Positions 1 to 47,470 of a DNA stretch of 47,470 nucleotides are shown in pieces. The position numbers were made by a program, and so were the translations under genes. This DNA comes from a virus. Each line of letters begins with the position of its first letter. Positions within the stretch are counted from its first letter, which is position 1. The notes below the pieces were generated by a model. That model had not been told where the DNA came from. It saw nothing but the letters and a program-made list of their open reading frames with translations, and did not search any database. The stretch lies in IMG/VR virus record IMGVR_UViG_3300010397_000019, positions 1 to 47,470 of that record; one strand, 5' to 3'.

Positions 1-123
1 CATTGGCGCTCAGTGGCTGTTCTTCGCTCTCCAATGCCCAAGCCGAGGCCGACGTCTACAACATCGTGGCGCCGGCGCATCACGACTACGTCGAGCACGA
101 CATCACCATGCCGACCGACGCCA
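1..123. repeat. Terminal direct repeat, left copy
   Basis: Bases 1-123 are identical to 47348-47470. The repeat cuts the lipoprotein gene in two, which is what an assembler produces when it runs round a circular or circularly permuted molecule. The unit length is 47,347 bases. A true short terminal repeat of a linear genome is possible but less likely, because the repeat lies inside a gene. Confidence 0.95.
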
Positions 124-475: not shown

Positions 476-780
476 CCGATCCGCAACCACCGCAGCCTCC
501 TCCCACGCTGATGTGGTGGATCGCGTTCATCAAGGAGATTGGTTTCCCCAGCACCATGGCGTTCATACTTCTTTACGCCCTGCTGGTTCGATTCCCGGAG
601 ACCTTCCGCCAGATCGCTGAGTCTGGTAACGAGAGAATCCTGCAGACGGTATTGCAGAATCGCGGCGACATTCTTCGCGATCAGCAGATGACACAAGACT
701 TCCAGAACCTGGCGCTCGAGAACCACAAGAAGACGCAGATGATGCTCGAGCAGGTTCTGGCCGAGCTCAGGAAGCGCTGA
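472..780 (+). CDS. Small membrane protein with coiled coil (holin or inner-membrane spanin candidate)
   Basis: The product is 102 residues. It begins with a proline-rich cap, has one hydrophobic segment at about residues 14-41 (WWIAFIKEIG and MAFILLYALLV), and then a polar helical tail that looks like a coiled coil. One membrane segment followed by a coiled coil suits an inner-membrane spanin; a single-span holin is equally possible. The nearby lipoprotein favours a two-component spanin. GTG start overlaps the previous stop. It is the last rightward gene, and its 3' end overlaps the convergent leftward gene by 14 bases (767-780). Confidence 0.6.
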   Translation: MTDPQPPQPPPTLMWWIAFIKEIGFPSTMAFILLYALLVRFPETFRQIAESGNERILQTVLQNRGDILRDQQMTQDFQNLALENHKKTQMMLEQVLAELRKR

Positions 781-1264
781 GCACTTCCTCGAGCCGTTCG
801 GCGAGCGCGCCGATCGGGTGCCAACGGGTCTCCCCGCACGCGAGCGACGTGAGTTCCATATCGAGGGGCTGCGCGTCCAAGATCGTCACGTTCTCCCCGC
901 GCTTCCAGACGATCAGCCCGAACCCGCCGGCCTTTGCGACCTCTCTGAGGTGCTGCATCTGGTGGGTCTTGACGCCGAAGTCCCCGCTGTCCTTCCACAG
1001 CGGCAGGCTCTTGCGCTCCTCGCCGCACTGCTTCGCCTCAATGGCGATGTGCGCCCCGTGGTTGTTGAAGCCGAAGAAGTCGCAGCCACCTCGATCGACG
1101 TAGGACATGGTCTTCGTTGCCACGCCTGCCCCGCAGTTAGAACACCGGGAACTGCTGTCTTGGAGGATTTTGTCGATTGGCCATTTGAACAGCCTTGCCA
1201 CCTGTCGGGCTGCGAGCCGCTGCGAGATGCTTAGGATCAGGTTTTCGAGCTCCCTTCCGCGCAG
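767..1264 (-). CDS. RecU-like Holliday-junction resolvase / nuclease, start uncertain
   Basis: The frame from about 1264 to 767 reads like a RecU-type nuclease (restriction-endonuclease-like fold). It begins near RGRELENLILSISQRL and WPIDKI, has the core GGCDFFGFNNHG then IAIEAKQCGE (the acidic D...E-x-K catalytic pattern) and the HQMQHL helix typical of RecU, followed by GGFGLIVW. Such enzymes cut branched DNA during replication, recombination and before packaging. A CXXC (CSNC) pair is also present. The frame is open further upstream to 1423, but that part looks like a shadow of the 1137-1499 frame. The only nearby start is CTG at 1264, so either a weak start is used or the gene is the second half of a frameshifted single gene. 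Residue count from 1264 is 165. Confidence 0.6.
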   Translation of the reverse strand: MRGRELENLILSISQRLAARQVARLFKWPIDKILQDSSSRCSNCGAGVATKTMSYVDRGGCDFFGFNNHGAHIAIEAKQCGEERKSLPLWKDSGDFGVKTHQMQHLREVAKAGGFGLIVWKRGENVTILDAQPLDMELTSLACGETRWHPIGALAERLEEVLSAS

Positions 1265-1499
1265 CGCATGACTGGAGGAGGTTGGTGGCCTCGATGAGGT
1301 ATTTGCTCTGGAGGAGCTGGAGGCTCGAGGGGTCTTTCGTGGCATTGGCCTGCTCTGTGAATCGAAGGAAGGACTTGTCGAGCGCTTCGTTGAACTCACC
1401 GTCGCACAAGTCAATCCCGCCATGGATTACTTGGTAGAGAGATTCGATCCTCTTGGATACCGATTCAACCGCCAGCTTGATGCGGAGTGTCTGACTCAT
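1137..1499 (-). CDS. Hypothetical helical protein, N-terminal half of a possible frameshifted gene
   Basis: Starts at ATG 1499, inside the 3' end of the primase-helicase gene (35-base overlap), with MSQTLRIKLAVESVSKRIES. The first ~77 residues look like a genuine helical protein. The last ~43 (CAARKGARKPDPKHL and on) look like a shadow of the RecU-like frame, which carries the conserved motifs there. Either the true protein switches frame near 1260-1290, joining this N-terminal half to the RecU-like domain, or there are two overlapping genes. The helical half has no recognised function. Confidence 0.5.
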   Translation of the reverse strand: MSQTLRIKLAVESVSKRIESLYQVIHGGIDLCDGEFNEALDKSFLRFTEQANATKDPSSLQLLQSKYLIEATNLLQSCAARKGARKPDPKHLAAARSPTGGKAVQMANRQNPPRQQFPVF

Positions 1500-4400
1500 A
1501 GGGGAATAGCTCGTCTAGGTTCGGCTTCTGTTGATCGGGCACACCCACGCTGCGATCCTTCCACATTAGAAGGCGATCGCGTCTTTCCTTGTAGTTCTCC
1601 GGCTCTTCATCGCCCATTGCCGAGATTGCGCGCAGTAGCCGATTGGCCGGCCTGGTCAGCCGCATGGACAGTAGCCTGTCGCCGTGCTTACGCCTGGACA
1701 ATGCGCCACAAGCAAACATGCGATACTGCCATTCTTGGACCTGGCGTTGATCCAGATTCAAGAACGTCATCAGCTCGCTTTGATTGAACTCGCCGAGCAG
1801 GTTGCGCAGCACGTTGCTGGCGAGCCCGGCGTCCGGCACGTTCTTGATGAGCATCCACTCGACCTCGAACGGATTGGCGAGGCGCGCCTTGTCGGAGCTG
1901 CGCAGCGAGAACTCGCCGTAGCCAGAGATAGTGAACAGCTTCTCGAGCACCGAGACCGCGAGCTGCACATGGCAACGTCGGACCAGGCACTGCATAGGAT
2001 GACCCGTTGGGTGCGAATAGCACAGGTTCGCGATCGCGATGGCGCAGCGCAGGATCGAGCGCACCTTGTCGGGGCCGGTGAACAACGGGAGCTCGGGGCT
2101 GTAGACCGCGAGCCATGCCTGACAGGTGTCGACCGCGAGCGAGATGGCATCCGGCTCGAACGTGATCGAGTCCGCTTCCATGTCCCACGCGCGCCGCAGC
2201 AGAGCCGTGCACAGCTCCCCTGTGAATCGCGGCGTCATTGGATCGGGCTGTCCGACTCGGTTCGCCTCCTCGGCGATCGCGTCTGTGATCGTGTAGAGGA
2301 AGTCCGTCCTGCTGATGCACTCGTTGCGCCGGTAGAGCTCGAACATCTGCTCGCACGGGTAGCTCATCGACTCGAAGCCGCCGACGCCGACCGGATTGGC
2401 GATCGTGAGCAGACGCACGGCCGCCTTGTATTGCACGCTACTCGCCTTCTGGATGTGGAGCACGCCTTGATCGCGCACCTCCTGCAAGAGCTCCATGGGC
2501 GACGTCCAGTTGCGCTCGTCCATCATCAGGTGATACTCGTCCAAGGCGAGCATCTTGCCGTGGCTCTGCGGGATGAGTCCTGGTTTGCTGCGCCACATGC
2601 CGCTCTTCGTGCGCATCTGCATCGCGAGCAGCCCAGCCACAGTGAACGACGACTGCGTGCTCCGAATCGTAGGGAGCCCGTCGTAGTGCTCGATCAGCCG
2701 GCGCGCGACCTGGCTCTTCCCCGAGCGGGTGATCCCCACGATGCACGCGTCGACCCAGCCCCGCTGCACGGCGCCATCGTAGTTGAACCAGAGTGCACTG
2801 TGCGCCACCAGATCGAAGCACAGGTGCAGCATGTCGGAGCCGAAGATGCGCGTCACGTTGCCGGCGAGGTCGAGGTAGCGCGCCGAGAAGTAGCGCTCCA
2901 CCTTGTCCATGGTCTCCGCGTTCCACGGACACAGCTCCTTCAGTCGTTCGTCATAGAGCTCGATCTTGAATACCGCGCGCTCGACCAAACGCACTTCGTC
3001 GGCCATCACCGAGACCGTCTGTTGCCCGTCTTTGGGCAGGAAGCTGGTTCCCTTGATGACCATCTCATTGGAGATGTCCGGCGGGTCCTTACTGAAGATC
3101 GGGATATCGACTGGCGTATGGTTCTGCGACTCCTCTGTCACTGTCCATTGGAGCATGCCGGTGCCTTCCGCGCTGTGCTTGATGACGGCCTGCGTGCATT
3201 GACCAGGCTTGCCCATGACCTGCTTCATGATGACGTCGTTCGGCTTGCTGCTACCGAACACCTGGGCCTGCAGCTCCTTGTCCTCCTTCCAGTCGATCAC
3301 GCCCGAGCCGTAGTAGCTGGGCACGCGGCACTTGCTGCAGAATCCGTGCTGCCCCAGCGGGCAGTCAATGAAGGTCTGCTCGGGGAACCACACCGCGGAC
3401 TCCATCGACGAGCTGCAGCGGCCGCGGAGCTCGACGTCCTTCTCGGGCGGGAGCTCGCGCTTCTCCTCGCCGTCCTCGTCCTTCTTCGAGACCAGCGGCA
3501 GATACACCTTGGCCCGGCTCGGGTTCGCCTCCTCGAGCGGGGTCGCCTTGAGCACGTCCAGGTTCGGGAGACGACCCGCTGTCCACGCGTCGCGCAGGTC
3601 GCCGCCCCAATTCTCGCGCGGGTCGATCGGCACCGTGAGGATCCGCACCTTGCACTCGGCCAAAACGGCGAGGATGCGCGCGACCTTCTCGAGCAGGTTC
3701 TTGCGCCGCGTGAGCATGTCGGTGCGCTTCTTCTCGTCCGGCGCCCACTCGACGCCCGGCCCCTGCCAGACGTCGTTGTCGTAGCAGATGTCCCACTCGC
3801 GCTTCTTCGCCCACTCAGGGAGCTGCGCGTAGACCAGGGGGCTGTTGGCCCCTCCCGTCCACGAGTAGGCGTCCACGTCGAGCTTGACCCGCAGGATCAG
3901 GGCGTCCCACTCGCCCTCACACAGGACCAGCCGGCGGCCTTCCCGGGGCAGGATGTGCGCCGGCCAGAGGTAGTTCGGCGGCGAGCCCTTGCCGCCCATC
4001 CAGCACCACTTCGCCCCCGAGACCCAGGGCCCCTTCCACGCGTGGTAGGTGGGCGCGAGCCCGCCGTCCATGCGCATGTGCGGGAAGACGAGCAGGTTGC
4101 TCTTGTAGCCCAGGAAGAACGGCAACAGCTCCTTCTGCGAGAAGCCCCGTCGCTCCAGCTCGGCGCGGAACTGCGCGGCCAACGGGTCCTCCCACAGGGC
4201 GAGGCAGGCGAGCTCGAGCTCCTGGGCGTCGAGGGCTAGCTTGGGCTTGCCCTTGCCGCGGGTCGGCTTCTCGATCGACAGCTTCTGGGCCAGAAGGTCG
4301 ACCGCCTCCTGCCACTGCTGCATGTTGTTCAGGTGGGCGACCCAATCGAACAACGGCTTGCCGAACCCGCATTTGAAGCACTTCAGAAATGCGGAATGGA

Positions 4401-4557
4401 TCTCGACAGATCCGGCTCCCTTTTCGTCATCGCAGAACGGGCACTTGACGCTGAGGTGATCTACCCCACCTCCCTGCTTGATTACGATGCCGAGTGCTTC
4501 TAGATTCGGCTTGAGGTTCGAGACGAACGCGTTTCGGACGCGGCTATAGAAGTCCAT
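1465..4557 (-). CDS. Zinc/TOPRIM primase fused to MCM-like replicative helicase
   Basis: The product is 1030 residues from ATG 4557, preferred over ATG 4587 because GAGGA lies seven bases upstream. Domain order: a CHC2-like zinc finger (C39, C42, C60, C63: CPFC and CFKC); a TOPRIM domain with EGEWDAL (214-220) and CYDND (258-262), the acidic metal ligands of DnaG-type primases; a region with VELRGRC and a cysteine set ending CSKC (about 374-410) that resembles the MCM N-terminal OB/zinc domain; then an AAA+ core with Walker A GITRSGKS (608-615), a GLLA segment, Walker B MLALDEYH (669-676), an HIQKASSVQY loop, sensor IANP (719-722) and arginine-finger-like ISRTDF (748-753). The C-terminal helices resemble the MCM winged-helix region. 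It would prime and unwind DNA at the phage fork. Most phages use DnaB-type helicases fused to TOPRIM, so the MCM partner is unusual. Confidence 0.85.
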   Translation of the reverse strand: MDFYSRVRNAFVSNLKPNLEALGIVIKQGGGVDHLSVKCPFCDDEKGAGSVEIHSAFLKCFKCGFGKPLFDWVAHLNNMQQWQEAVDLLAQKLSIEKPTRGKGKPKLALDAQELELACLALWEDPLAAQFRAELERRGFSQKELLPFFLGYKSNLLVFPHMRMDGGLAPTYHAWKGPWVSGAKWCWMGGKGSPPNYLWPAHILPREGRRLVLCEGEWDALILRVKLDVDAYSWTGGANSPLVYAQLPEWAKKREWDICYDNDVWQGPGVEWAPDEKKRTDMLTRRKNLLEKVARILAVLAECKVRILTVPIDPRENWGGDLRDAWTAGRLPNLDVLKATPLEEANPSRAKVYLPLVSKKDEDGEEKRELPPEKDVELRGRCSSSMESAVWFPEQTFIDCPLGQHGFCSKCRVPSYYGSGVIDWKEDKELQAQVFGSSKPNDVIMKQVMGKPGQCTQAVIKHSAEGTGMLQWTVTEESQNHTPVDIPIFSKDPPDISNEMVIKGTSFLPKDGQQTVSVMADEVRLVERAVFKIELYDERLKELCPWNAETMDKVERYFSARYLDLAGNVTRIFGSDMLHLCFDLVAHSALWFNYDGAVQRGWVDACIVGITRSGKSQVARRLIEHYDGLPTIRSTQSSFTVAGLLAMQMRTKSGMWRSKPGLIPQSHGKMLALDEYHLMMDERNWTSPMELLQEVRDQGVLHIQKASSVQYKAAVRLLTIANPVGVGGFESMSYPCEQMFELYRRNECISRTDFLYTITDAIAEEANRVGQPDPMTPRFTGELCTALLRRAWDMEADSITFEPDAISLAVDTCQAWLAVYSPELPLFTGPDKVRSILRCAIAIANLCYSHPTGHPMQCLVRRCHVQLAVSVLEKLFTISGYGEFSLRSSDKARLANPFEVEWMLIKNVPDAGLASNVLRNLLGEFNQSELMTFLNLDQRQVQEWQYRMFACGALSRRKHGDRLLSMRLTRPANRLLRAISAMGDEEPENYKERRDRLLMWKDRSVGVPDQQKPNLDELFPYESDTPHQAGG

Positions 4558-4635: not shown

Positions 4636-5448
4636 CTACTCCTCCCGCTGCAGATTCTCGTCCTGCTGGCCAACATCAAGTCGGTTTGCGTCCCAGGCAT
4701 CGGCGAGCTTCTGGTAGAGCGCCTTGGCGGCGTCTCGGTAGGGTTGGGGGAAGACCTCACTCCTATCCCAGCCGATCGTCATTTTGAAGTAGGAGGCCTT
4801 CTTGCCGCTCCCGCCCTTGAGCTCCTTGGTGTCCAGGGCGACGTTCACCACCACGGGGTGGTGCCAGAAGTTCCGGTCGGCCATGGCGACGTCGGAGAGG
4901 AAGTCGGCTCCGGCCTTGAAACTGGTCCTCGAGAAGCGGAGCACGTAGGGTCCGAACTGCGTCAGGAAGACGTAGTTGTTAGAGAGGGAGCACGGCGGGG
5001 ATTGCCCGGCCGGTGTCTTGCCGTTCTCGTCCTTGGGCCATTCCTTGTGTTGGCAGGAGGCGCAATCCCCGTAATGCGAGCCCTGGATTGCTTGCGGAGC
5101 AATGCAGCGCTCGAGACCGGCGGTTTCAAGCCGGCTGTCCTGAGGGAACAGCGCTCGGCTCTTGCTGTGGAAGATAATCATTCCACGGATTGGCGGCTCG
5201 AGGCACTCCTTCCTATTGGTCAGGTAGAAGAGGCCTGGCCGTAGCCCGTCTTTGACCACCTCATCGGAAATGCCCTGCAGCACCTTGATGCGGGGCACGA
5301 TGATGTCACCGAGCTCGACGTTCTTTCGCGAGACGACCTCTTCGTCTCGGAACGGTTCGATCTCGGCGCTTTGGCCGCCGACGCTTGGTAGCAGGTCGAC
5401 GCCGCGGAACGGTTTTGGGGTCCAGACGGTGGGGGTGTTTTCACTCAT
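4636..5448 (-). CDS. Possible ssDNA-binding / replication accessory protein with four-cysteine cluster
   Basis: The product is 270 residues, starting MSENTPTVWTPKPF. It has a beta-rich core (GDIIVPRIKVLQ, GMIIFHSKSRALF), a cysteine cluster likely to bind zinc (C115, C129, C132, C153) and a second beta-rich part (NNYVFLTQFGPYVLRF, FKMTIGW). It lies immediately upstream of the primase-helicase in the same transcript. Position and the mixed beta/zinc layout suggest a single-stranded-DNA-binding or RPA-like accessory protein. No motif proves this; a plain hypothetical is the safe name. Confidence 0.6.
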   Translation of the reverse strand: MSENTPTVWTPKPFRGVDLLPSVGGQSAEIEPFRDEEVVSRKNVELGDIIVPRIKVLQGISDEVVKDGLRPGLFYLTNRKECLEPPIRGMIIFHSKSRALFPQDSRLETAGLERCIAPQAIQGSHYGDCASCQHKEWPKDENGKTPAGQSPPCSLSNNYVFLTQFGPYVLRFSRTSFKAGADFLSDVAMADRNFWHHPVVVNVALDTKELKGGSGKKASYFKMTIGWDRSEVFPQPYRDAAKALYQKLADAWDANRLDVGQQDENLQREE

Positions 5449-5638: not shown

Positions 5639-6062
5639 CGTCTTCTTTCCAGCCTCTCACGCTGATTGTTGGGGTTGTGTCCAGGTTCAGGAACTGCGGA
5701 ACTCCAGTCTCCGACTCGGGCAACGGGGCCTTACCCTCGTTCTCGAATACGGTCTTTAGGTATTCGGTGAGCCGCTTGGTCTTGAGCGATGGCTCCCAAT
5801 ACTGCTCGGGATCCTGGCCGCGCGTCTCGAGCCAGCTCAGCACCTTCTCGGCAATGTCCTTGCTTTTGCGATACCAGAAGGCCGGGCGCAGGCTGTATTG
5901 CCGCCCTTCATCGTCCGTCGTGTTACGCAGACCCTGGTCGACCAAGTGCTCGGCGAGCTTCTTCTCGGCGGCCTTGAAGCGCTCCTGCGCCTGCTTGAAC
6001 TCGAAGTTAGCGGCGTCCTTGCGGATGCGGGCCTCACGATACTCAGCTAGGACTTCTTTCAT
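5622..6062 (-). CDS. Hypothetical protein with N-terminal coiled coil
   Basis: The product is 146 residues. Residues 1-45 (MKEVLAEYREARIRKDAANF and on) form a charged heptad-like helix, followed by a short beta segment (GRQYSLRPAFWYRKS) and helices (IAEKVLSWLETRG). The length and helix-then-beta layout resemble small phage proteins next to single-strand binding or annealing functions, but this is only an analogy. The ATG at 6062 overlaps the previous stop (ATGA). The end is acidic (EDDEDSD). Confidence 0.7.
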   Translation of the reverse strand: MKEVLAEYREARIRKDAANFEFKQAQERFKAAEKKLAEHLVDQGLRNTTDDEGRQYSLRPAFWYRKSKDIAEKVLSWLETRGQDPEQYWEPSLKTKRLTEYLKTVFENEGKAPLPESETGVPQFLNLDTTPTISVRGWKEDDEDSD

Positions 6063-6292
6063 TGTGGTTGATCGTTGTTGTTGGCTTGAGCGAGAAGAAT
6101 GTTGAACGTGCGCACAGCAAGTTTCAGGAACAGCTTGATTTGTCTCCGATCCATAGACCCGGCTTGCATGATCTGATTAGCGCCTCGGGTCAGAGCGATT
6201 AGAGCTATTTCAATCACGGGCTCACCTTCCATTTCTCGCTTAAGCGCTTGGAATCGCGGATCGTTCTGAGTCATTTCCGAGTAGTCGCTCAC
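6059..6292 (-). CDS. Small helical hypothetical protein
   Basis: The product is 77 residues from GTG 6292, chosen because GTGA overlaps the stop of the upstream glycosyltransferase and GGAG lies at a good distance. ATG 6274 is an alternative. Sequence MSDYSEMTQNDPRFQALKRE is followed by a mainly helical body (IALIALTRGANQIMQAG, LFLKLAVRTFNILLAQ). No family is recognised. Confidence 0.65.
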   Translation of the reverse strand: MSDYSEMTQNDPRFQALKREMEGEPVIEIALIALTRGANQIMQAGSMDRRQIKLFLKLAVRTFNILLAQANNNDQPQ

Positions 6293-6969
6293 AGCCCAAG
6301 CTCCAAGCACATCCCCTCGAACCTGAGCCCCGCCTGCGCGCGCTCTTCGACCGGGATTGCGTTACTGGTCCTGCTTCCCTCGTGATGCGCCCATGCCGTA
6401 GGTGCGATGAGAAACGGTAATGGGTCGCTCAGCTTCTGCCAGATGCGCGCCGTCAGGTTGTCCTCATACCACGCGCGGCCCAGCCGCTCAGCAAAGAGCT
6501 GACGCCGATTCTCGACCTTGCCCAGCTTGCGCCACGCGATCATCACCATGACCATGGGCATCAGCCAACAGATGGCGGGCACGAACGCGGCACGACGGGG
6601 ACTCTCGAACCGAGGACCCGTTGCCGCCTGCTCGGGGCAACTGGTGTAGTCAGTCGTAGGGCACACGACCAAATGCTCCTGGCGATGCTTCCACAGCTCG
6701 TCGATGCACTTCTGCGGCATGTGCATGTCGTCATTGATGCACAGCACGTAGTCAGGAACGCTGTGTTGGAGGAGCAGATCGTGCAGCGCGCAGTTCATGC
6801 CGTAGGCGAACCCGAGCGGCTCATCCTGCAGGTTGTGGGTGAGACTGGCCGAGATGCCGCACAGCGCGAAGCCGCCGACTAGAGTCGTCGCCCATTCGTC
6901 GAGCGAATCCATGCGGCGCTTGTCGTCGTTGGGGTCGACGACGCTGCTGGTGATGATGCCGAGGTTCAT
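6289..6969 (-). CDS. GT-A type glycosyltransferase (family 2-like)
   Basis: The product is 226 residues from ATG 6969 (ATGA overlap with the upstream stop). It starts MNLGIITSSVVDPNDDKRR, a Rossmann-like beta strand, and carries VLCINDDMHMP (DDM at 80-82), the DXD-type motif that holds the metal and sugar nucleotide in GT-A enzymes. Later it has VCPTTDYTSCPEQAATGP and a hydrophobic segment (ICWLMPMVMVMIAW) that may be a buried strand rather than a membrane helix. It heads a three-gene glycosyltransferase group (6.3-8.9 kb). The acceptor could be phage DNA, a virion protein or a host surface glycan. Confidence 0.7.
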   Translation of the reverse strand: MNLGIITSSVVDPNDDKRRMDSLDEWATTLVGGFALCGISASLTHNLQDEPLGFAYGMNCALHDLLLQHSVPDYVLCINDDMHMPQKCIDELWKHRQEHLVVCPTTDYTSCPEQAATGPRFESPRRAAFVPAICWLMPMVMVMIAWRKLGKVENRRQLFAERLGRAWYEDNLTARIWQKLSDPLPFLIAPTAWAHHEGSRTSNAIPVEERAQAGLRFEGMCLELGL

Positions 6970-7388
6970 AGCCATTCTTGGATAGGTCGCCACCCCGCCT
7001 TGATCCGAGCCGCTGCCACCTCCTCCGCGCTCGGCAGCCGCTTCATTATGAAGATCCCTTCGTGATTGCAGATGTCTGGGTGGATCTTGCGGAGCAGCGC
7101 CTGCACTTTGTAGGACCAGACCCCCTTCATGCCTTTCTGAACTGTGATGACTGAGCAGCCGAGCCGCTTGCAGAAGTCCTCGAGATTCTTGCAGTCGTTC
7201 GTTGCCATCATGGCCCGAACCTGCTCTTCGCGGAAATCAGCCCATGGCGTTGGCTTCGCTCCCAATGGAAGAACCTGCTGAACGGCGCCAATAGGCCTGA
7301 TGCGATCCAGGGTGCCGTTCTCGAGATTCTTGTTCAACTGTTGGACCGCGTCAACCAGACGCTCTAAGACGGTTACCAGCTCTATCAT
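6966..7388 (-). CDS. Hypothetical protein with possible helix-turn-helix
   Basis: The product is 140 residues. The N-terminus is a leucine-rich helix (MIELVTVLERLVDAVQQLNK). The middle, FCKRLGCSVITVQKGMKGVW, could form a helix-turn-helix. It lies between two glycosyltransferases with ATGA overlaps on both sides, so it is expressed with them. No function can be named. Confidence 0.6.
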   Translation of the reverse strand: MIELVTVLERLVDAVQQLNKNLENGTLDRIRPIGAVQQVLPLGAKPTPWADFREEQVRAMMATNDCKNLEDFCKRLGCSVITVQKGMKGVWSYKVQALLRKIHPDICNHEGIFIMKRLPSAEEVAAARIKAGWRPIQEWL

Positions 7389-8140
7389 GGCCCAGGCGCC
7401 TCCTTAGCACTAGCTTCGTATATCAAATGCCTATACTTATCCTTATCAAACCCACGCGGCATCCGCAGATTATCAATAGGGACGAGGGTAAGTTTTTGTC
7501 CGGTGTGAAACGCCACCCCGTCTTTCAAGCACCTGTCAATGTGCTCGCGGCTCTGGTTGTTCAGCTCCTGATGTGAGTTGCAATCAATTTTCTTCAGAAT
7601 ACGATCAGGGCCGCCTAGAAAGCTCATGTGCCACGCCACCTCGGGAGCAACGGGGATCGAGTGACGAATGACTCGAAGTTGATCTGGGCTGTGTGACCTA
7701 AGCCACCCGACAGTAGCCGCCATCGGAGAAAGCTGCCTCTCGTGGTTAATGGCGTTCACATAATAGTAAGTGAACCTAGCCTGGAAAACGACAGGAAGCT
7801 TCTTGTCGATGAGCGCTCTAATGCCTTCTTCTGACACTATCTCGTCAGCATCGCAGACGGTAGCGATGTCGCCATCTTCAGCTCCGAGTCTATTAAGGCC
7901 GTCCATTATTGCATTGCGCTGATGGCGCTCCCGATCCCATGGGTCTTGACTGCTTGGCATACCGTATTGCACATGACAAATGCCAGGTATCGGCCCGCGA
8001 ATCGGCTTTGGCTTGCCGCTGAATGTCGTCTCTGATTCGACCATGACGAACCCATCGACGACGCCGCCTAGCTCTGCCAGTCGCATCTCGAGGCACTCCA
8101 CCTCGTTCATGTAGAGGAAGCAATCGAAGATGCGAGTCAT
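7385..8140 (-). CDS. Glycosyltransferase family 17-like protein
   Basis: The product is 251 residues from ATG 8140 (ATGA overlap with the 8137-8925 gene). It matches the family 17 layout (beta-1,4-N-acetylglucosaminyltransferase type): IFDCFLYMNEVECLEMRL, then VVDGFVMVESETTFSGKPKP, then RERHQRNAIMDGL, then VCDADEI (DADE at 97-100), the metal-binding acidic motif. The family transfers GlcNAc or related sugars. It is common in viruses and bacteria as an accessory enzyme, often with unknown acceptor. The DNA of this gene is visibly less GC-rich than its neighbours, suggesting separate acquisition. Confidence 0.85.
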   Translation of the reverse strand: MTRIFDCFLYMNEVECLEMRLAELGGVVDGFVMVESETTFSGKPKPIRGPIPGICHVQYGMPSSQDPWDRERHQRNAIMDGLNRLGAEDGDIATVCDADEIVSEEGIRALIDKKLPVVFQARFTYYYVNAINHERQLSPMAATVGWLRSHSPDQLRVIRHSIPVAPEVAWHMSFLGGPDRILKKIDCNSHQELNNQSREHIDRCLKDGVAFHTGQKLTLVPIDNLRMPRGFDKDKYRHLIYEASAKEAPGP

Positions 8141-8925
8141 GGAATCGTGACCTCTTTCGCTGTTTCTTCGTCCCAATAAGGGTCGATATACAGCTTGTCG
8201 ATTGTCAAGGCCTTGCCTGCCGCGGCCGCTCTCTGTAGCCCAACCTCGTATCGAGCTTGCCCGAATATCTTGTGAGCAGCGGGGTCTCCGTCAGGACGCT
8301 TCTCGGCGCCGCGCCATTCACGGTAATCAATGCTATCTAGCCAGTTGGCGCAACCAACGAAGGTCGGATTACGGAACGGACACATCTTCGCTCTCGTCGA
8401 GCGCAGCATCAGCTCAGTGTCCTCGCCGCCTACAAAACCCTCGAATGTCCTATGCATGCCGCCCAACACATTCGACGCGCGCCGCGTCATGCTAATCATC
8501 ATGGCGCCGTCCAGTTTGGTGGCTACTACCTGATAATCACCGCATGGTGGTCCATACTCGGTGATGCCTTGGTAGAAATCTTCTGGCTTGAAGGTGATGA
8601 TCTCACACTTGGTTGCTTGATGCGCATTTCGATACCATCGATCCCAACCCCTTCGGCTTGGATAGGTATCGTCCTCAAATAGGAATAAGTGCTCGAGCTC
8701 GGTGTGTTGCTTGAACCATTGGAAGATGCGGTTCTTGCCTCCCGATGGTCCAAGGTTTCTTCCAGAGCCCAGCTTTGCGTGCTCAGTGTCTATTGCCAAC
8801 GCTTCTTTGCTATTGGCTGATATTACCAACAAATACGGCTCAACAGTCAGGGCTGTGATCGCCGGCAAGATCACGTCCCGCACAAACTCCGCCCGCCGCC
8901 ACGTCAGAATGCCGATGCCAATCAT
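8137..8925 (-). CDS. Glycosyltransferase, GT-A fold
   Basis: The product is 262 residues. It starts MIGIGILTWRRAEFVRDVI, typical of family 2-like enzymes; NLGPSGGKNRIFQW (about 57-70) resembles the nucleotide-binding loop, and FLFEDDTYPS (DDT at 85-87) is the DXD motif. A later GGEDTELMLRS fits the catalytic acidic helix of the fold. It is coupled by ATGA overlaps to the family 17 enzyme and to the 70-residue gene upstream. Substrate is unknown. Confidence 0.75.
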   Translation of the reverse strand: MIGIGILTWRRAEFVRDVILPAITALTVEPYLLVISANSKEALAIDTEHAKLGSGRNLGPSGGKNRIFQWFKQHTELEHLFLFEDDTYPSRRGWDRWYRNAHQATKCEIITFKPEDFYQGITEYGPPCGDYQVVATKLDGAMMISMTRRASNVLGGMHRTFEGFVGGEDTELMLRSTRAKMCPFRNPTFVGCANWLDSIDYREWRGAEKRPDGDPAAHKIFGQARYEVGLQRAAAAGKALTIDKLYIDPYWDEETAKEVTIP

Positions 8926-9134
8926 TGTTCCCTGGTTCCGAGCAAGACCCTACGAAACTGGTCCTGGTTGTTCTTCACATACCAGCCGGACAAGCAACTG
9001 AGAATGACGCCAATCCTAGTCTCGGCCTGGCCTCGCTGAGCGCGAATGACCTGAAGTAGGAACAACAGCTCGCTGTCAGGCAATGGCGGCACCTTGAGCG
9101 TGTGCTCGATCGCTTCTTCGATGTCTCGTGGCAT
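8922..9134 (-). CDS. Small helical hypothetical protein
   Basis: The product is 70 residues, MPRDIEEAIEHTLKVPPLPD and on. It is all-helical by eye and unrelated to anything recognised. There is no clear ribosome-binding site; the upstream bases on the minus strand are the T-rich tail of the terminator at 9141-9226, so transcription must read through or start just after it. Confidence 0.55.
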   Translation of the reverse strand: MPRDIEEAIEHTLKVPPLPDSELLFLLQVIRAQRGQAETRIGVILSCLSGWYVKNNQDQFRRVLLGTREQ

Positions 9135-9140
9135 GGCAAT

Positions 9141-9226
9141 GAAAGAAAAAAGGCCGGGCAGGGCTCGGACAAGAGAACGATTGGGAGGGGATTCAGGTGG
9201 ATGTCAGCTCCACCGCCTGCCCGGCC
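9141..9226 (-). terminator. Branched rho-independent terminator downstream of the AT-hook gene
   Basis: On the minus strand an 11-base stem (arms 9216-9226 and 9152-9162, GGCCGGGCAGG) closes a loop that itself contains a six-base hairpin (GGTGGA 9196-9201 with TCCACC 9209-9214). It is followed by six T and CTTTC. This is a strong terminator for the 9249-9668 transcript. The two-level structure in a roughly 75-base loop is larger than a simple terminator, so a stable small RNA is possible. Confidence 0.7.
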
Positions 9227-9248
9227 AGGTGTGTCACAGCCCTTGTTT

Positions 9249-9668
9249 TTAGGTCAGGAGCTCTTCGAGCTTGTTGATGATCGACGTCAGCCGGTTGCGC
9301 TCCTGGATGAGCGCGTCCAGCTTCTTGGGCAGCCCATCGGCGCCGTCAGCAGCGTAGCCGTTCACGATCTCGGTCTTGTGCCGGCGCGCGGTGGACGCAG
9401 CCACCGCCTCCAACGGGCCCTTCCGAGGACGACCCGGTCCCCGCTTGGGCGCGCCCACACCAAGCCCTGCCGGCTCGGGCGCGACCCGGTCCTTGCGCGG
9501 CTTCGTCTTCACGAGCCCGAGCAGCGCCTTGGCCCGGCCGTAGACGATCGGGTAGAGCTCGCCGTGCTTACTGACCTTCGCCTTCACGTCCGCGAACAGG
9601 GCCCCGGGGTTCCGCTGCAGCACCTTGCATACCGCGGCCATCATCGGATTCATCTCACCACTAGCCAT
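9249..9668 (-). CDS. AT-hook DNA-binding protein
   Basis: The product is 139 residues with an excellent AAGGAG site six bases before ATG 9668. The centre holds KRGPGRPRKGP, a classic AT-hook (GRP core) that binds the minor groove of AT-rich DNA. The N-terminus is helical (MMAAVCKVLQRNP) and the C-terminus (DALIQERNRLTSIINKLEEL) is a short coiled coil, so the protein is probably a dimer. It follows the SNF2 helicase gene by nine bases and is likely its partner or a nucleoid/transcription factor. The AT-rich control region at 17.4-17.6 kb is a plausible target. Confidence 0.75.
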   Translation of the reverse strand: MASGEMNPMMAAVCKVLQRNPGALFADVKAKVSKHGELYPIVYGRAKALLGLVKTKPRKDRVAPEPAGLGVGAPKRGPGRPRKGPLEAVAASTARRHKTEIVNGYAADGADGLPKKLDALIQERNRLTSIINKLEELLT

Positions 9669-9677
9669 TGTAACTCC

Positions 9678-11639
9678 TTACGCTCCAATAAGATCCTTGA
9701 GCTCGCGCATGGTCCTCACAGCGAGGATCGTAGCCGCGGAGCCTTCCTTCAGTGCCAGCCTCCGCTCGAGGTAGACCTCGCAGGTTTCCAGAACGACTGG
9801 AAGCTCCACGTTGACCGTGCCGAGCTGACCGATGCGATGGCACCGATCTTCGGCCTGGGTATTCACTGCAGGGGACCAATCCCTACCGAACATAATGACG
9901 TCGGAGCTTCTTACAAGCGTGAAGCCCTCGGCCATCTTCACTTGCCCCAGCAGGACGTCGTAGCGCCCCGCTTGGAACCCTTCGACAACCTCCTGCTTTT
10001 GCGTGCTAGTGAGGTTCCCGACCATTAGGACCGGCTTCTTGCCGAGCCTCTCAAGCTCCTGGAAAAACCAGTAGAGAGGGGCATTGAACCGGCTCCAGAC
10101 AACTGCGGGTCTGCCAGCAACGAGTAGATCCTCGAGGTAATCGAGGGTCCAGGTGAGCTTCGTCGAGCCAGGGAACACGAGTTCCTTGGGCCGTCCCTTC
10201 AGGGAGACCGCCCTGCATTCCCGTAGGACACTTGCGACTCGCTCCGTCACTTCCTCCGGCAGCCCGCCTACAAATCCTTGTGCGATCTGCTCGAGCCGCA
10301 TGGCCTGCTCGAGCGCCGACCTGGCTCTTTCACTGAACACGTCCTCGTCATCGGGCAGATCGCCGAACGTGTAGAGCCAGAAGCGCTTCATCGCCGCGTA
10401 GACAAGGGCCGTGTGCTCGTCGAGCTCGAGGCCGTGCCGGCGCCGCACCTTGGGCGGCAGGTTCGCGACCTCGCTCTTGAGCCGGCGGATCTGGTAGCAC
10501 TCGACGATCGCGTTCAGCTCCTTCTCGTTCTTGATCGCGACGACGTGCCGCTTCTTCTTGCCGTTGGGCAGCGTCATCTCGCCATAGACCAGGTAGCGAT
10601 CCTCGAACTCGTTCCAGTTCGACCAGACCTCCATCAGCATGCTGATCTGCGTGTAGAGGTCGACGGCATTGTTGCGAATCGGCGTGCCGGTGAGGAGGAG
10701 CCGCGCAGCGGGTCTCAGGTCACGCACGATCTGCGTGCGCTTGCTCGAGCGATCCTTGATGTAGTGCGATTCGTCGCAGATGAGGAACGCGTCCTTGACG
10801 TGCGCCTCGATCGCGGCCATGTGGCGCTCGCTCAGATTCCGCAACAGGTCGTAGTTGATGACAATGACCTGCTTGTGCGGCACGAGCACGAACAGGTCGG
10901 CGCGCTTCTTCGGTGGGCCGTCGATGACGAGGATCTGCTGCTCGTCGACACCCTGGGCGAGGAGCTCGTTGCGCCAGTTCCACTTCACGCTGACGGGGCA
11001 GAGGACGAGGAGGCGGGGCGGCTTGGGCAGCAAGAGTTGCGGGTTCTGCTCGTGCACGCACCACAGCTTGAACGCCTCGATGGCGACGGCCGTCTTGCCG
11101 AGGCCCATGTCGTCGGCGAGCAGCGCTGTGAAGGCCTGTGCGCGAATGGCGCCCAGCGCCTGCTTCTGGTGCACGCGCAGCGGCCGGAGAGGCTTGGAGA
11201 GCCCGTCGCCGAACGCGAAGTCGGCATCGGTGCGCTCGAGGATGAACTTCTTGGTCGCGGGGCGCTTGCTCACGACGTCGGCCGCGAGGTCCGCGTGCTC
11301 AGTCCACTCCACCCCGTTCCCCGCCGCGCGCGGCAGGAGGCGCAGGAGCGCCTGAGCGGCCAGCGGATGCGCCGGCAGGATGATCGTGCCCTCTGGGGCC
11401 TGACGATTCCCGCCGGCGCGCACGCACCCAGGGATGGCCTTGAGCTTCGACCACAGCGGGTCCTTCGGCTCGGGCAGCCCTGGGCCCTTCAGGACGAAGC
11501 ACGGGCGCGGCCGGTCCTTCTGCATGAACGGCGGCGACAGGGCCGGGTCGAACGACACTTGCACGGGCAGCGGGTCTCCGTAGGAGGACGCGGAAGCGTC
11601 CGAACTGAAGGGAGCCGTGGGAGGTCGGTAGCCCGGCAT
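9678..11639 (-). CDS. SNF2-family DNA helicase / translocase
   Basis: The product is 653 residues. About 150 N-terminal residues are unassigned. The two RecA-like domains follow: LRPLRVHQKQAL, Walker A ADDMGLGKT (175-183), motif Ia LLVLCPVSVKWNW, Walker B LICDESHYIKD (DESH near 289-292), motif III LLLTGTPIRN, and in the second domain VVWSRFNAPL, LLGQVKMAEGFTL and QAEDRCHRIGQ (motif VI, about 593-603). The last is diagnostic of SNF2 enzymes, which move along duplex DNA. It may remodel nucleoprotein or help replication and recombination. Upstream lies a cluster of AAGCTTT palindromes; the AT-hook gene follows in the same transcript. Confidence 0.9.
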   Translation of the reverse strand: MPGYRPPTAPFSSDASASSYGDPLPVQVSFDPALSPPFMQKDRPRPCFVLKGPGLPEPKDPLWSKLKAIPGCVRAGGNRQAPEGTIILPAHPLAAQALLRLLPRAAGNGVEWTEHADLAADVVSKRPATKKFILERTDADFAFGDGLSKPLRPLRVHQKQALGAIRAQAFTALLADDMGLGKTAVAIEAFKLWCVHEQNPQLLLPKPPRLLVLCPVSVKWNWRNELLAQGVDEQQILVIDGPPKKRADLFVLVPHKQVIVINYDLLRNLSERHMAAIEAHVKDAFLICDESHYIKDRSSKRTQIVRDLRPAARLLLTGTPIRNNAVDLYTQISMLMEVWSNWNEFEDRYLVYGEMTLPNGKKKRHVVAIKNEKELNAIVECYQIRRLKSEVANLPPKVRRRHGLELDEHTALVYAAMKRFWLYTFGDLPDDEDVFSERARSALEQAMRLEQIAQGFVGGLPEEVTERVASVLRECRAVSLKGRPKELVFPGSTKLTWTLDYLEDLLVAGRPAVVWSRFNAPLYWFFQELERLGKKPVLMVGNLTSTQKQEVVEGFQAGRYDVLLGQVKMAEGFTLVRSSDVIMFGRDWSPAVNTQAEDRCHRIGQLGTVNVELPVVLETCEVYLERRLALKEGSAATILAVRTMRELKDLIGA

Positions 11640-11667: not shown

Positions 11668-11847
11668 AAGCTTTAACTGGCGTCGAAGCTTTTGCAAGCG
11701 ACTCGAAGCAAAAAGAAGCGCCCCGGCCAATGGACCCGGGGCGCTGCTCTCCACGGTTTGTCACACCGGGTCCCGTGCAAATGCTTAGACCACAGGAAAG
11801 CTTTGAGAGCCTACTCGAAGCTTTTGATGTGGACAAGTGGAAAGCTT
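11668..11847. promoter_or_regulatory. Five AAGCTTT palindromes upstream of the SNF2 gene
   Basis: The 207-base gap 11640-11846 holds AAGCTT cores at 11668, 11686, 11798, 11818 and 11842, mostly extended to GAAAAGCTTT or CGAAGCTTTTG. Two pairs are 18 and 20 bases apart, and the two pair units resemble each other (GAAAGCTTT...CTCGAAGCTTTTG). The same motif recurs only in the main control region. The layout looks like operators or activator sites for the SNF2/AT-hook operon. The terminator at 11711-11745 lies between the two pairs. Confidence 0.55.
11711..11745 (-). terminator. Rho-independent terminator after the 11847-13931 gene
   Basis: On the minus strand a nine-base stem (GCGCCCCGG at 11736-11744 read in reverse, CCGGGGCGC at 11718-11726) with a nine-base loop is followed by TTCTTTTTG. 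This fits a leftward terminator about 100 bases after the stop of the 694-residue gene. The stem sequence equals the hairpin at 4570-4599. Confidence 0.75.
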
Positions 11848-13931
11848 TACACCATGGTGGAATAGTCCACCGCGAGCCACCGGTCCATGTCATCGAACGT
11901 TTCGACCTTGCCGCGCATCGCTCGGATCTGCTCGAGGATCGCCGCGCACCGAGCCTGGACGACGGGCTCCTCGGGCAGGAGCTGCTGGGCGAGCCGCACC
12001 GCCGGGTAAGCCCAGAGGTGGAACCCGTCGCCCGCGTCCTCGACGAACACGCCCTTGCCCGCGCCGTCGACTGCAGCGTAGGCAGCCGCGTCGAGCGGCT
12101 GGCCCTGCGTGCCGTCGGGGACCCAGAGCTGCTGACCCTGATCCCAGGAGAACCCGCGGTAGGCCACTCCGTTCGCCAGGCGCCACCCAGGGAGCCCGTC
12201 GCGCAGGAACCACCCGTAGAGCATCAGCGTGCGCAGCGAGCGCTTGATGACGCCCAGGAGGGCTGTGGCGGTGGATCCGATCTCGCGGTAGCCGAGGAAC
12301 AGGCCCGGCGCGCACAGCGCCTCGGCCCAGCCGACCCAGAAGTGCGAGCGGCCGCCGAGCTCGCGCGGGTCGGGCAGGCTGTAGCTGCTGCAGTCGATCT
12401 CCCACGCCGGGCTCGCTCCGGCCGAGGGCCAAGTGTCCACGTTGAGCTGCGCCACGTTCTGGATGGCAGCGAGCATCTCCACGTCGTTGGTGAGCCGATG
12501 GAGCCAGGCGCCAGCGTGCATGTTGCGGCCGCGCGCGCGGTTCGCCGCGTCGAACGGTGCGGCGCGCCAGTGCACGATCTGGTCAGCGAGCTCCTCCTGC
12601 AGGAGGCGGCTCCCGCCGAGGAGGACCGCGGCGCCGAGCCGGTTGATCGAGTTGTGCTGCTGGTCGCGGCCGAGGAACCCGTGGTCCGTGAACGGCCCCC
12701 ACCACTGCGGCTTGCCGAGCCGATCGGGGCTCACGTTGGGGTGGAAGTGAGTCTGCTGGGCCCAGCTCTTCCAGTCCGGGTGCGCGCTCGGGTCGATGCG
12801 CGAGCCGTCCGCCTCGCGGTAGTGAATGGGGCGACGGGTCTCTCCGTAGCCCGAGGCCTCGAGCTCGGCGAGATTGTAGGGTGCCGCGACAACGGGGCTC
12901 AGGACCTCGGGCGCGGGCCCGGGCGGGAAGTCTTCTTGCGCGCCCGTGCCCCCGGGGTTGCCGCGTAGGCCCATGGTCGTGCTCGCCCACGGTGCCAAGG
13001 TCTGGTCCGCGACTTCGAGCTTCCACTTCTGATAACGTTCGAGTGCCGCCGCGCGCCCGTCGAGAAGGAACGGGCTCAGAGCCGGGACGGCGCGAAAGGG
13101 ACCGCACTGGCCCTGCCACGCAGTGCCGGCGACCACCGCGCGCACGTCGCCGCGCTGGAGCGCATCCATGCTCTGGAGGTCGTCGTGCCCGTCGCCCCTA
13201 GCATGCATGTAGTGCAGCAGCACGCCGCGAATGCTCGTGTGCCCCTGCCCGTTGCCCAGCGTGTCCGCGAGCCACAGCCGGCGCGCCCAACCGAAGGGCC
13301 CGGCCTCGAGCTTCTGCGCGAGCCGATCGACCGTGGGCCCGTAGACGTGCACGTAGGCATCCTCGTGCCCACCGAACACGTCCTCGTGTGCGGCTTCGAG
13401 CGCTTGCGTGCGCGGATCCGAGAACAAGTAGGAGGCCTCGAACCGTGTCCACGGCTCGTCCGCGAAGCGCCACGCGATCATGGTCACGACGTTGGGCCCA
13501 TCGCGGCCGACCACGCGGCGCACGGACAACGGGCCTTCCGTGAGGGTCTGGTCCGACGTCCACGCCACCTCGTCCTTGCCGCGCTGCTGGACGCGTAGCA
13601 GAGGCACGGGGGCCGGCCGCGCGGCGAGTTCTGGTGCCAAGCCAGGACTCGCCGTTGGTTGGGTCACGAGCTCGGCGAGCACCTGCTGTGCGGCCGGGCA
13701 GCCCTCAGCCATGAGCACGTAGCCGCGCCGGCCCTCGACGCCGATACCCGAGCCGATCCAAGCGGGTTGTTGGCGCATGTCCCATTGGTAGCGCCAGGTT
13801 GCGGAGAGCGGCTCCTGATTGAGGGGAGTGGTCAACTCGACCCAGCCTTTGAATAGGCGGTCCGAGGAGTTGACGACGACGAAGGGGAGTGCCATGCGCG
13901 CGACCGTAGCCGCACGCACGGCGCTTGTCAC
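11847..13931 (-). CDS. Large protein of unknown function, possible polysaccharide-active fold
   Basis: The product is 694 residues from GTG 13931 (GTGA overlap with the upstream stop); ATG 13895 (MALPFVVVNSSDRLFKGW) is an alternative. The N-terminal ~170 residues look beta-rich; the C-terminal half has helices rich in W, H and Y (HFHPNVSPDR, FWVGWAEALC, LMLYGWFLRDGLPGW, FHLWAYPAVRLAQ), a style seen in alpha/alpha-barrel glycan lyases and hydrolases. No catalytic motif is certain. It follows a gene for an exported protein and is closed by its own terminator. It might be a glycan-degrading or receptor-related protein, but its place in the early block argues against a plain tail spike. Confidence 0.6.
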   Translation of the reverse strand: MTSAVRAATVARMALPFVVVNSSDRLFKGWVELTTPLNQEPLSATWRYQWDMRQQPAWIGSGIGVEGRRGYVLMAEGCPAAQQVLAELVTQPTASPGLAPELAARPAPVPLLRVQQRGKDEVAWTSDQTLTEGPLSVRRVVGRDGPNVVTMIAWRFADEPWTRFEASYLFSDPRTQALEAAHEDVFGGHEDAYVHVYGPTVDRLAQKLEAGPFGWARRLWLADTLGNGQGHTSIRGVLLHYMHARGDGHDDLQSMDALQRGDVRAVVAGTAWQGQCGPFRAVPALSPFLLDGRAAALERYQKWKLEVADQTLAPWASTTMGLRGNPGGTGAQEDFPPGPAPEVLSPVVAAPYNLAELEASGYGETRRPIHYREADGSRIDPSAHPDWKSWAQQTHFHPNVSPDRLGKPQWWGPFTDHGFLGRDQQHNSINRLGAAVLLGGSRLLQEELADQIVHWRAAPFDAANRARGRNMHAGAWLHRLTNDVEMLAAIQNVAQLNVDTWPSAGASPAWEIDCSSYSLPDPRELGGRSHFWVGWAEALCAPGLFLGYREIGSTATALLGVIKRSLRTLMLYGWFLRDGLPGWRLANGVAYRGFSWDQGQQLWVPDGTQGQPLDAAAYAAVDGAGKGVFVEDAGDGFHLWAYPAVRLAQQLLPEEPVVQARCAAILEQIRAMRGKVETFDDMDRWLAVDYSTMV

Positions 13932-21728: not shown

Positions 21729-22377
21729 CATTCTCCTTCCCTTCGTCGGCGATCGCTTCGGCGTGATCGAGATGCTCGACAACATCATGGAGAAGACCGA
21801 GATCCCATGCCGGATCGTCATCTGCGACGATGGCAACCAGGCCGGGGTCTTGGAGGGAATCCGGATCTTCGCCAAGCAGAGCAAGGTGCCTATGGTAGCT
21901 TTTCGCAACGAGCAGCCATTGGGGTGGAAAGCTTCGATTCTGCGCTGCCGCGCGCATGTGAGTCCAATGCACGACTACTTTGCCGTGTTGCCGCCGGATC
22001 AGCTCTTCGAGTCGGATACCTGGTTCGGTCAACTCATTGCTCCGCTGCAGCGCGATGGCACCGCCTACGCGGCGCTAACCAATCCTGAAGTGCCTTGGAA
22101 CAGCAACCCACCGGTGCGGTTGGTAGTGGCTCCAAACATTCGCCGGACATTGACCATGTTCAAGCGCAAGTCGAACCCACCGATTCCTGACGGCAGGTCG
22201 GAGAACTACGGCGCCGACCTGTTCCTCAATGCTCGCCTCACAGGAAATATCGTATGGGAAGTGGGCGCAGTCAGGACCAAGCCTTCGTTAGGCGGACTGT
22301 TCAAGTTCGTCGAGTTGTCGGATCCCGAGCTGAAGAAACGCACCGTCAAGGCCCCGGAAATCGCTATCAATCGCTGA
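21703..22377 (+). CDS. Family 2-like glycosyltransferase
   Basis: The product is 224 residues. ADILLPFVGDRFGVIEMLDN and CRIVICDDGNQAG (41-47) match the start of GT-A family 2 enzymes; PLGWKASIL and FAVLPPDQLFESDTW hold the second acidic position (PPDQ instead of DXD). The C-terminal part is shorter than in secreted-glycan synthases and has no membrane segment, so it would work in the cytoplasm. First of the second glycosyltransferase cluster, between TerL and portal. Confidence 0.7.
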   Translation: MRPGPTQADILLPFVGDRFGVIEMLDNIMEKTEIPCRIVICDDGNQAGVLEGIRIFAKQSKVPMVAFRNEQPLGWKASILRCRAHVSPMHDYFAVLPPDQLFESDTWFGQLIAPLQRDGTAYAALTNPEVPWNSNPPVRLVVAPNIRRTLTMFKRKSNPPIPDGRSENYGADLFLNARLTGNIVWEVGAVRTKPSLGGLFKFVELSDPELKKRTVKAPEIAINR

Positions 22378-22400
22378 CGTCGACCAGTCGTATCCGAGAC

Positions 22401-47323: not shown

Positions 47324-47470
47324 AGAGACTTCTCGTTGTTTGCTGCGCATTGGCGCTCAGTGGCTGTTCTTCGCTCTCCAATGCCCAAGCCGAGGCCGAC
47401 GTCTACAACATCGTGGCGCCGGCGCATCACGACTACGTCGAGCACGACATCACCATGCCGACCGACGCCA
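47320..47470 (+). CDS. Small lipoprotein, N-terminal part (continues at 1-194)
   Basis: ATG 47320 overlaps the stop of the giant gene (ATGA). The sequence MKRLLVVCCALALSGCSS is a lipoprotein signal with lipobox L-S-G-C. The gene runs off the end of the window and continues at base 1 because of the 123-base repeat; full length 73 residues. See the entry at 1-194. Confidence 0.8.
   Translation, partial: MKRLLVVCCALALSGCSSLSNAQAEADVYNIVAPAHHDYVEHDITMPTDA
47348..47470. repeat. Terminal direct repeat, right copy
   Basis: Identical to bases 1-123; marks closure of the 47,347-base unit. Confidence 0.95.

Follow-up and report, generated by a model that had tools for sequence, protein, structure and literature searches.

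The DNA analysed here (IMG/VR record IMGVR_UViG_3300010397_000019, positions 1 to 47,470; this whole 47,470-nucleotide viral stretch is called the window below) carries on its minus strand an open reading frame encoding a protein of 1030 residues, which begins with an ATG at 4557, preceded 7 nt upstream by GAGG, and stops at 1465. The original prediction for this locus was a DnaG-type primase fused to an MCM-like helicase in a phage, a proposal now confirmed by a family profile, in which DnaG and MCM are matched by separate halves, and by a structural model. Sequence comparison and structure prediction show both enzyme halves, their order and their intact catalytic residues, together with the lack of a DnaB helicase in the 38 records that carry this family. 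The protein is probably a phage replicative primase-helicase, in which a DnaG-type primase is joined to an MCM-type AAA+ helicase at its N-terminal face (Table 1).

Taken alone, the window protein passes the cut-off of only one Pfam family, the DnaG zinc ribbon (PF01807, 25.6 bits, cut-off 24.9), and contains the four cysteines of the CHC2-like zinc finger that had been proposed; its N-terminus consists of PF01807 plus TOPRIM, with no match to PF01896. Against PHROGs, it matches the DNA primase family phrog_47 (residues 29-262, E 9.4e-13), phrog_10371 (residues 594-764, E 9.6e-13), which is also matched by MCMs of the archaeal viruses HATV-3 and HSTV-1, and phrog_18685 (residues 513-881, E 6.4e-18), which is matched over full length by the archaeo-eukaryotic primase (AEP)-MCM protein of Bacillus phage vB_BboS-125. 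A profile built from 56 full-length family members retrieves, with its N-terminal third, Aquifex DnaG (2au3, E 5.8e-23), E. coli DnaG (1dd9) and the T7 gp4 primase (1nui, E 1.1e-8) and, with its AAA+ part, MCM6 (E 3.8e-11), MCM3 (E about 4e-11), archaeal MCM and MCM8/9 (E from 4e-11 to 8e-7), with MCM2-7 among the matches; the best 60 PDB profile matches are all primases or MCMs. An hhalign comparison with four archaeal-virus MCMs (probability 99.1, E 1.2e-18) spans part of the OB domain, the AAA+ core and the winged helix, to residue 965.

The TOPRIM motifs EGEWD (214-218) and DND (260-262) retain their catalytic residues (E214, D218, D260, D262), in agreement with the TOPRIM assignment made earlier. 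In the AAA+ half, GITRSGKS is followed by GLLA (642-645), LALDEYH (E674), HIQKAS (K704), IANP (N721) and ISRTDF (R750), so that all signatures quoted in the original prediction are present in the translation, each in its expected place. Since G608, G613, K614, E674, N721, R750, C399, C407 and C410 are invariant in the 56-member alignment, the occurrence of such signature residues in the window protein is, judged from sequence, not due to chance; K704 is kept in 53 of the 56. Across the TOPRIM-MCM, AEP-MCM and archaeal-virus proteins there is little or no variation in Walker A, Walker B, sensor 1 and the arginine finger, R750 being present in every aligned row (63 TOPRIM-group, 9 AEP-group, 4 archaeal-virus), and G642 and G660 of the helix-2 insert are invariant in archaeal-virus MCMs as well.

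In an AlphaFold2 model of the protein (predicted local distance difference test, pLDDT, 82.6), residues 347-881 match the MCM structure 9nuk (Z 29.6, root-mean-square deviation 5.2, 451 residues aligned), and the alignment with 8x7u_C extends to residue 956, in the winged-helix region. The helix-2 insert, which was looked for specifically, is represented by strands where they would be expected; these and the strands of the pre-sensor-1 hairpin lie inside the MCM-aligned region. When residues 346-535 were folded alone, the top structural match was the MthMCM N-terminal domain (1ltl, Z 10.3, 133 residues), which favours an MCM-type identity for the cysteine-containing, OB-like region described earlier; other OB proteins (RPA and CST chains) equal 1ltl in Z, yet align over only 81-93 residues. 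MCM alignments begin near residue 346, and the primase lies where the MCM N-terminal helical subdomain A would be expected, residues 340-370 being modelled with low confidence. Profile search and structure prediction, between them, place the AAA+ part with MCM and point to an MCM-type OB domain. DnaB was rejected as a candidate for the AAA+ part, as no DnaB_C match (PF03796) was found in this genome.

Table 1. Features of the primase-helicase gene, followed by neighbouring genes of the same strand (window coordinates).
Feature	Position	Strand	Evidence
TOPRIM primase-MCM helicase gene, 1030 residues	1465..4557	-	open frame, family profile, model
DnaG-type zinc-binding domain, residues 36-98 (C39, C42, C60, C63)	4264..4452	-	PF01807; 2au3 DnaG match
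Primase catalytic core and TOPRIM, about residues 111-330 (E214, D218, D260, D262, D320, D323)	3568..4227	-	profile matches, conserved catalytic residues
MCM N-terminal-like OB domain with inserted zinc ribbon (predicted), residues 346-535 (C399, C407, C410, C454)	2953..3522	-	structural match of the domain folded alone
MCM AAA+ motor and lid, residues 550-885	1903..2910	-	structure match, family profile, hhalign
Walker A GITRSGKS, residues 608-615	2713..2736	-	G608, G613, K614 invariant in 56 members
Helix-2 insert hairpin, residues 640-664	2566..2640	-	model strands 645-649, 655-659
Pre-sensor-1 hairpin with K704, residues 699-711	2425..2463	-	model strands 699-702, 708-711
Arginine finger R750 in SRFD-like motif ISRTDF	2308..2310	-	invariant
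C-terminal winged-helix-like domain, residues 886-967	1657..1902	-	model: helices, then two strands
Four-cysteine protein related to Pam3 gp34 (PF23977), directly upstream of primase-helicase	4636..5448	-	PF23977 29.4 bits, cut-off 27
RecU-like Holliday junction resolvase, downstream	767..1423	-	PF03838 31.1 bits, cut-off 25
SNF2-type helicase, same gene block	9678..11639	-	PF00176 115.1 bits

No relatives turned up when viral contigs were scanned with the single sequence; a scan of these contigs driven by an alignment brought out 236, and 80 loci were retained from them. Distant relatives (20-29 percent identity) were identified by tblastn in the contig ctokW459 and in isolated phages, including Microbacterium Krampusvirus, Arthrobacter Wollypog, Bacillus BSTP5, BSTP8, BSTP10, BSTP12 and BSP7, Weizmannia Youna2, and Paenibacillus API480. 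Each of those examined has a TOPRIM and/or DnaG zinc finger match in addition to a PF00493 match, and the PF00493 cut-off (23.3) is passed by BSTP5 (27.7 bits), Youna2 (27.3 bits) and Wollypog (24.0 bits). The proteins of Krampusvirus, Wollypog, BSTP5, Youna2 and API480 have the full architecture and conserved residues of the window protein, but their identity to it is only 20-24 percent and the phages examined have polymerases of their own. The TOPRIM-MCM architecture is a broad phage family and no one-off; because the fusion occurs in isolated, complete phage genomes, chimeric assembly is ruled out. A scan of one genome per species yielded a single relative, in a Microbacteriaceae metagenome-assembled genome (L096), where the primase-OB part (5938-7626) and the AAA+ part (8236-9591) are separate open reading frames with two small frames between them, a natural split version of the protein. 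The first TOPRIM glutamate is lost in 12 of 62 TOPRIM-MCM members, their MCM motor staying intact (GGExK in L005, L053, L081, L085 and L088; alanine or glycine for glutamate in L006, L017, L022, L027, L039, L048 and L071), and these may be dead or altered primases.

GenBank entries for members of the family read only ‘DNA primase’, ‘DNA primase/helicase’ or ‘DNA primase small subunit’. The last of these, an AEP label applied to L003 (6789-9692) and L007 (4255-7272), is misleading, as both have Pfam matches to the DnaG zinc finger and to TOPRIM. Full-text searches of the open-access literature, not all of them directed at this question, turned up no paper on a TOPRIM-MCM fusion, and an earlier mention elsewhere is possible; AEP-MCM fusions are already known from bacterial mobile elements (PMC5862659, PMC4538821).

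The nearest relatives of the family are AEP-MCM proteins of the BcMCM type, found in a Bacillus prophage and in vB_BboS-125 and its relatives. Like the window protein, these join primase and helicase in one polypeptide and possess the same helicase half (OB/zinc N-terminal domain, AAA+ core, winged helix), but their primase is archaeo-eukaryotic rather than DnaG-type (in vB_BboS-125, PF01896 40.8 bits and MCM 49.7 bits), and the position of zinc ligand C407 is not a cysteine. BcMCM itself has 3'-5' helicase and primase activity, as reviewed (PMC4538821). Archaeal and archaeal-virus MCMs (HATV-3, HSTV-1) resemble the window protein in their OB/zinc N-terminal domain, helix-2 insert, pre-sensor-1 hairpin, SRFD arginine finger and winged helix, but have no fused primase. 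Primase-helicases of the T7 gp4/DnaB type likewise place a zinc finger and TOPRIM primase N-terminal to a ring helicase; the gp4 motor, however, has a RecA fold and runs 5'-3', tracking on the lagging strand, whereas the motor of the window protein is an MCM AAA+ domain.

In a tree built on OB and AAA+ columns, the phage proteins (TOPRIM-MCM and AEP-MCM together) form one clade against the archaeal-virus MCMs (support 100/100), with a long branch between the two. The AEP-MCM group nests among the TOPRIM-MCM proteins, and the window protein branches deepest, together with that of a sister contig, G001 (L010). The approximately unbiased test speaks against a single TOPRIM clade without rejecting it at 5 percent (p 0.058), and because of this value and the long branches the direction of the primase swap is only suggested. 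A larger tree agrees, and contains one odd TOPRIM row (L069) beside the AEP group; this protein carries an AEP, which explains its position, and was rejected as a TOPRIM-MCM. We tentatively propose, at a confidence that falls a little short of even, that TOPRIM-MCM is ancestral in a bacteriophage-only MCM lineage, inside which BcMCM arose by a primase swap, and that the fork of these phages is a hybrid: a 3'-5' MCM ring, seated on the leading strand and bearing a bacterial primase on its leading face, would feed a C-family polymerase of host or phage.

An exact 123-bp direct terminal repeat (1..123 and 47348..47470) closes the contig to 47,347 bp, as a closed or terminally redundant genome, and in this genome searches for PolA (PF00476), DnaE (PF07733) and PolB (PF00136) gave no match, so that the lack of a polymerase claimed earlier holds for these three families; a search with PF03175 was uninformative, as no control genome matched. 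Among the 38 records carrying the family, DnaE is encoded in 27 and PolA in 6, with neither in the window and four others, and DnaB_C is absent from all 38, the window genome included, while being matched in 14 of 14 control genomes. In the isolated phages the primase-helicase gene lies near polymerase genes, and those examined encode phage polymerases. The sister contig G001 matches much of the structural and replication gene set of the window (its major head protein is 80 percent identical), and no phage polymerase was seen in it; this contig is not closed and, lacking a terminal overlap, may be a fragment. Homologues of the Pam3-gp34-like protein lie directly upstream of the primase-helicase at 11 scanned loci (the window and ten others) that span distant members of the family, which makes this protein a probable replication partner candidate. 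SNF2 helicase matches occur in 27 related loci.

By analogy with MCMs and BcMCM, six copies of the window protein would form a ring on the leading-strand template, tracking 3'-5' with the N-terminal tier ahead. As the fusion point lies where the MCM N-terminal helical subdomain would be expected, the primase would be positioned at the leading edge, close to the zinc ribbons and to the exit of the excluded lagging strand, on which the tethered primases could lay RNA primers at the leading face. In replisomes of yeast and humans, the catalytic subunit of primase lies above the lagging-strand exit channel, between zinc fingers of MCM, at the leading edge of the Cdc45-MCM-GINS (CMG) helicase (PMC10501992). 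The predicted geometry would thus be like that of CMG holding Pol alpha-primase, albeit with an unrelated primase, and the mirror image of that of T7 gp4. The Pam3-gp34-like zinc protein, encoded just upstream, could be a single-strand binder or loader. As no recognisable phage DNA polymerase is encoded in the genome, the host replicase would extend the primers, a use of host machinery that is plausible for this phage, while most relatives encode a DnaE or PolA of their own. A C-terminal beta-clamp peptide was considered as a sign of host replicase recruitment (the sister tails read NLDELFP and DIGGLFP) and rejected, clamp-like motifs being no commoner than in shuffled tails.

Several points weigh against a replicative TOPRIM-MCM enzyme of this kind. 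On its own, the window protein does not reach the Pfam MCM threshold (PF00493); profile-profile comparison of its OB/zinc domain alone with archaeal-virus MCMs is not significant, so that this assignment is supported by structure prediction and not by sequence. The model, with a predicted template modelling score (pTM) of 0.63, does not fix where the primase lies with respect to the ring, and the activity, oligomeric state and polarity of the enzyme are predictions. The BcMCM group has the helicase half in common but carries a different primase. Selection to keep priming is not strict throughout the family, since the first TOPRIM glutamate is missing from 12 of 62 members. That no polymerase was found refers to the three main families searched, and a very divergent enzyme could have escaped. 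It is nevertheless very improbable that the AAA+ half belongs to another branch of the AAA+ superclade (RavA/Mg-chelatase, Lon or D5/SF3) joined to a generic OB domain. The window protein, which by itself has no Pfam MCM match, does give a weak, sub-threshold match to Mg-chelatase (E 0.014), but its relatives pass the Pfam MCM cut-off, the 60 best PDB profile matches hold nothing other than primases and MCMs, the structural match at Z 29.6 covers both the MCM N-terminal domain and the AAA+ core, and the N-terminal domain alone prefers MCM, zinc subdomain included. D5/SF3, Lon and Mg-chelatase are likewise missing from the best 60 PDB profile matches and the best 50 structural rows for the AAA+ part, which by itself is no proof.

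A different role for the same protein also has to be weighed. If the MCM ring and primase acted mainly as an initiator, melting the phage origin and priming once before host DnaB and Pol III took over the fork, the lack of a phage polymerase in the window genome, and of one seen in the unclosed sister contig, would be accounted for. The modelled C-terminal winged helix could bind an origin, and MCM-like helicases of staphylococcal cassette chromosome mec (SCCmec) elements have been proposed as initiators, Cch2 of the same elements binding specific DNA repeats (PMC7581432). However, the same protein also occurs in relatives that encode polymerases of their own, which argues for a role in elongation, and a fused primase fits repeated lagging-strand priming best; we consider initiation alone unlikely. 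We are similarly doubtful of a repair or fork-restart enzyme that re-primes after stalling and is not the main replicative helicase, even though a re-initiation role has been proposed for BcMCM in a review (PMC4538821) and the gene block of the window also encodes a RecU-like resolvase and an SNF2 helicase: DnaB is missing from all 38 records, most relatives combine the primase-helicase with a phage DnaE or PolA, as is normal for a phage replisome, and the gene is found near polymerase genes in isolated phages.

MCM is regarded as the replicative helicase of archaea and eukaryotes, and in the literature surveyed its phage examples are paired with archaeo-eukaryotic primases. That a broad phage family combines an MCM ring with a bacterial primase demonstrates free mixing of primase and helicase types, and suggests that the primase of BcMCM was swapped. 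TOPRIM-MCM would offer a single-polypeptide model for priming coupled to a leading-strand (3'-5') helicase; if the proposed fork is correct, the fork that copies phage DNA in bacteria would have a eukaryote-like polarity.

Further observations concern other genes of the window and of one related record. In the replication-side block, a 694-residue open reading frame (11847-13931, minus strand) has no Pfam or PHROG match, and two of three glycosyltransferase-like genes lie in the same block (7385-8176 and 8137-8925, minus strand), the third being located between terminase and portal (22254-23729, plus strand). A lipoprotein-like frame crosses the join of the closed genome. In the record of L035, a PolA match (G010:C1:8724-10913) is found in pieces within one 1196-residue frame, which suggests an intein or large insertion. 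A 2163-residue open reading frame without a Pfam match (40832-47323, plus strand) encodes a probable giant virion protein, and contains HNHPGSTPFSAQD, which resembles the JAB/MPN metalloprotease motif.

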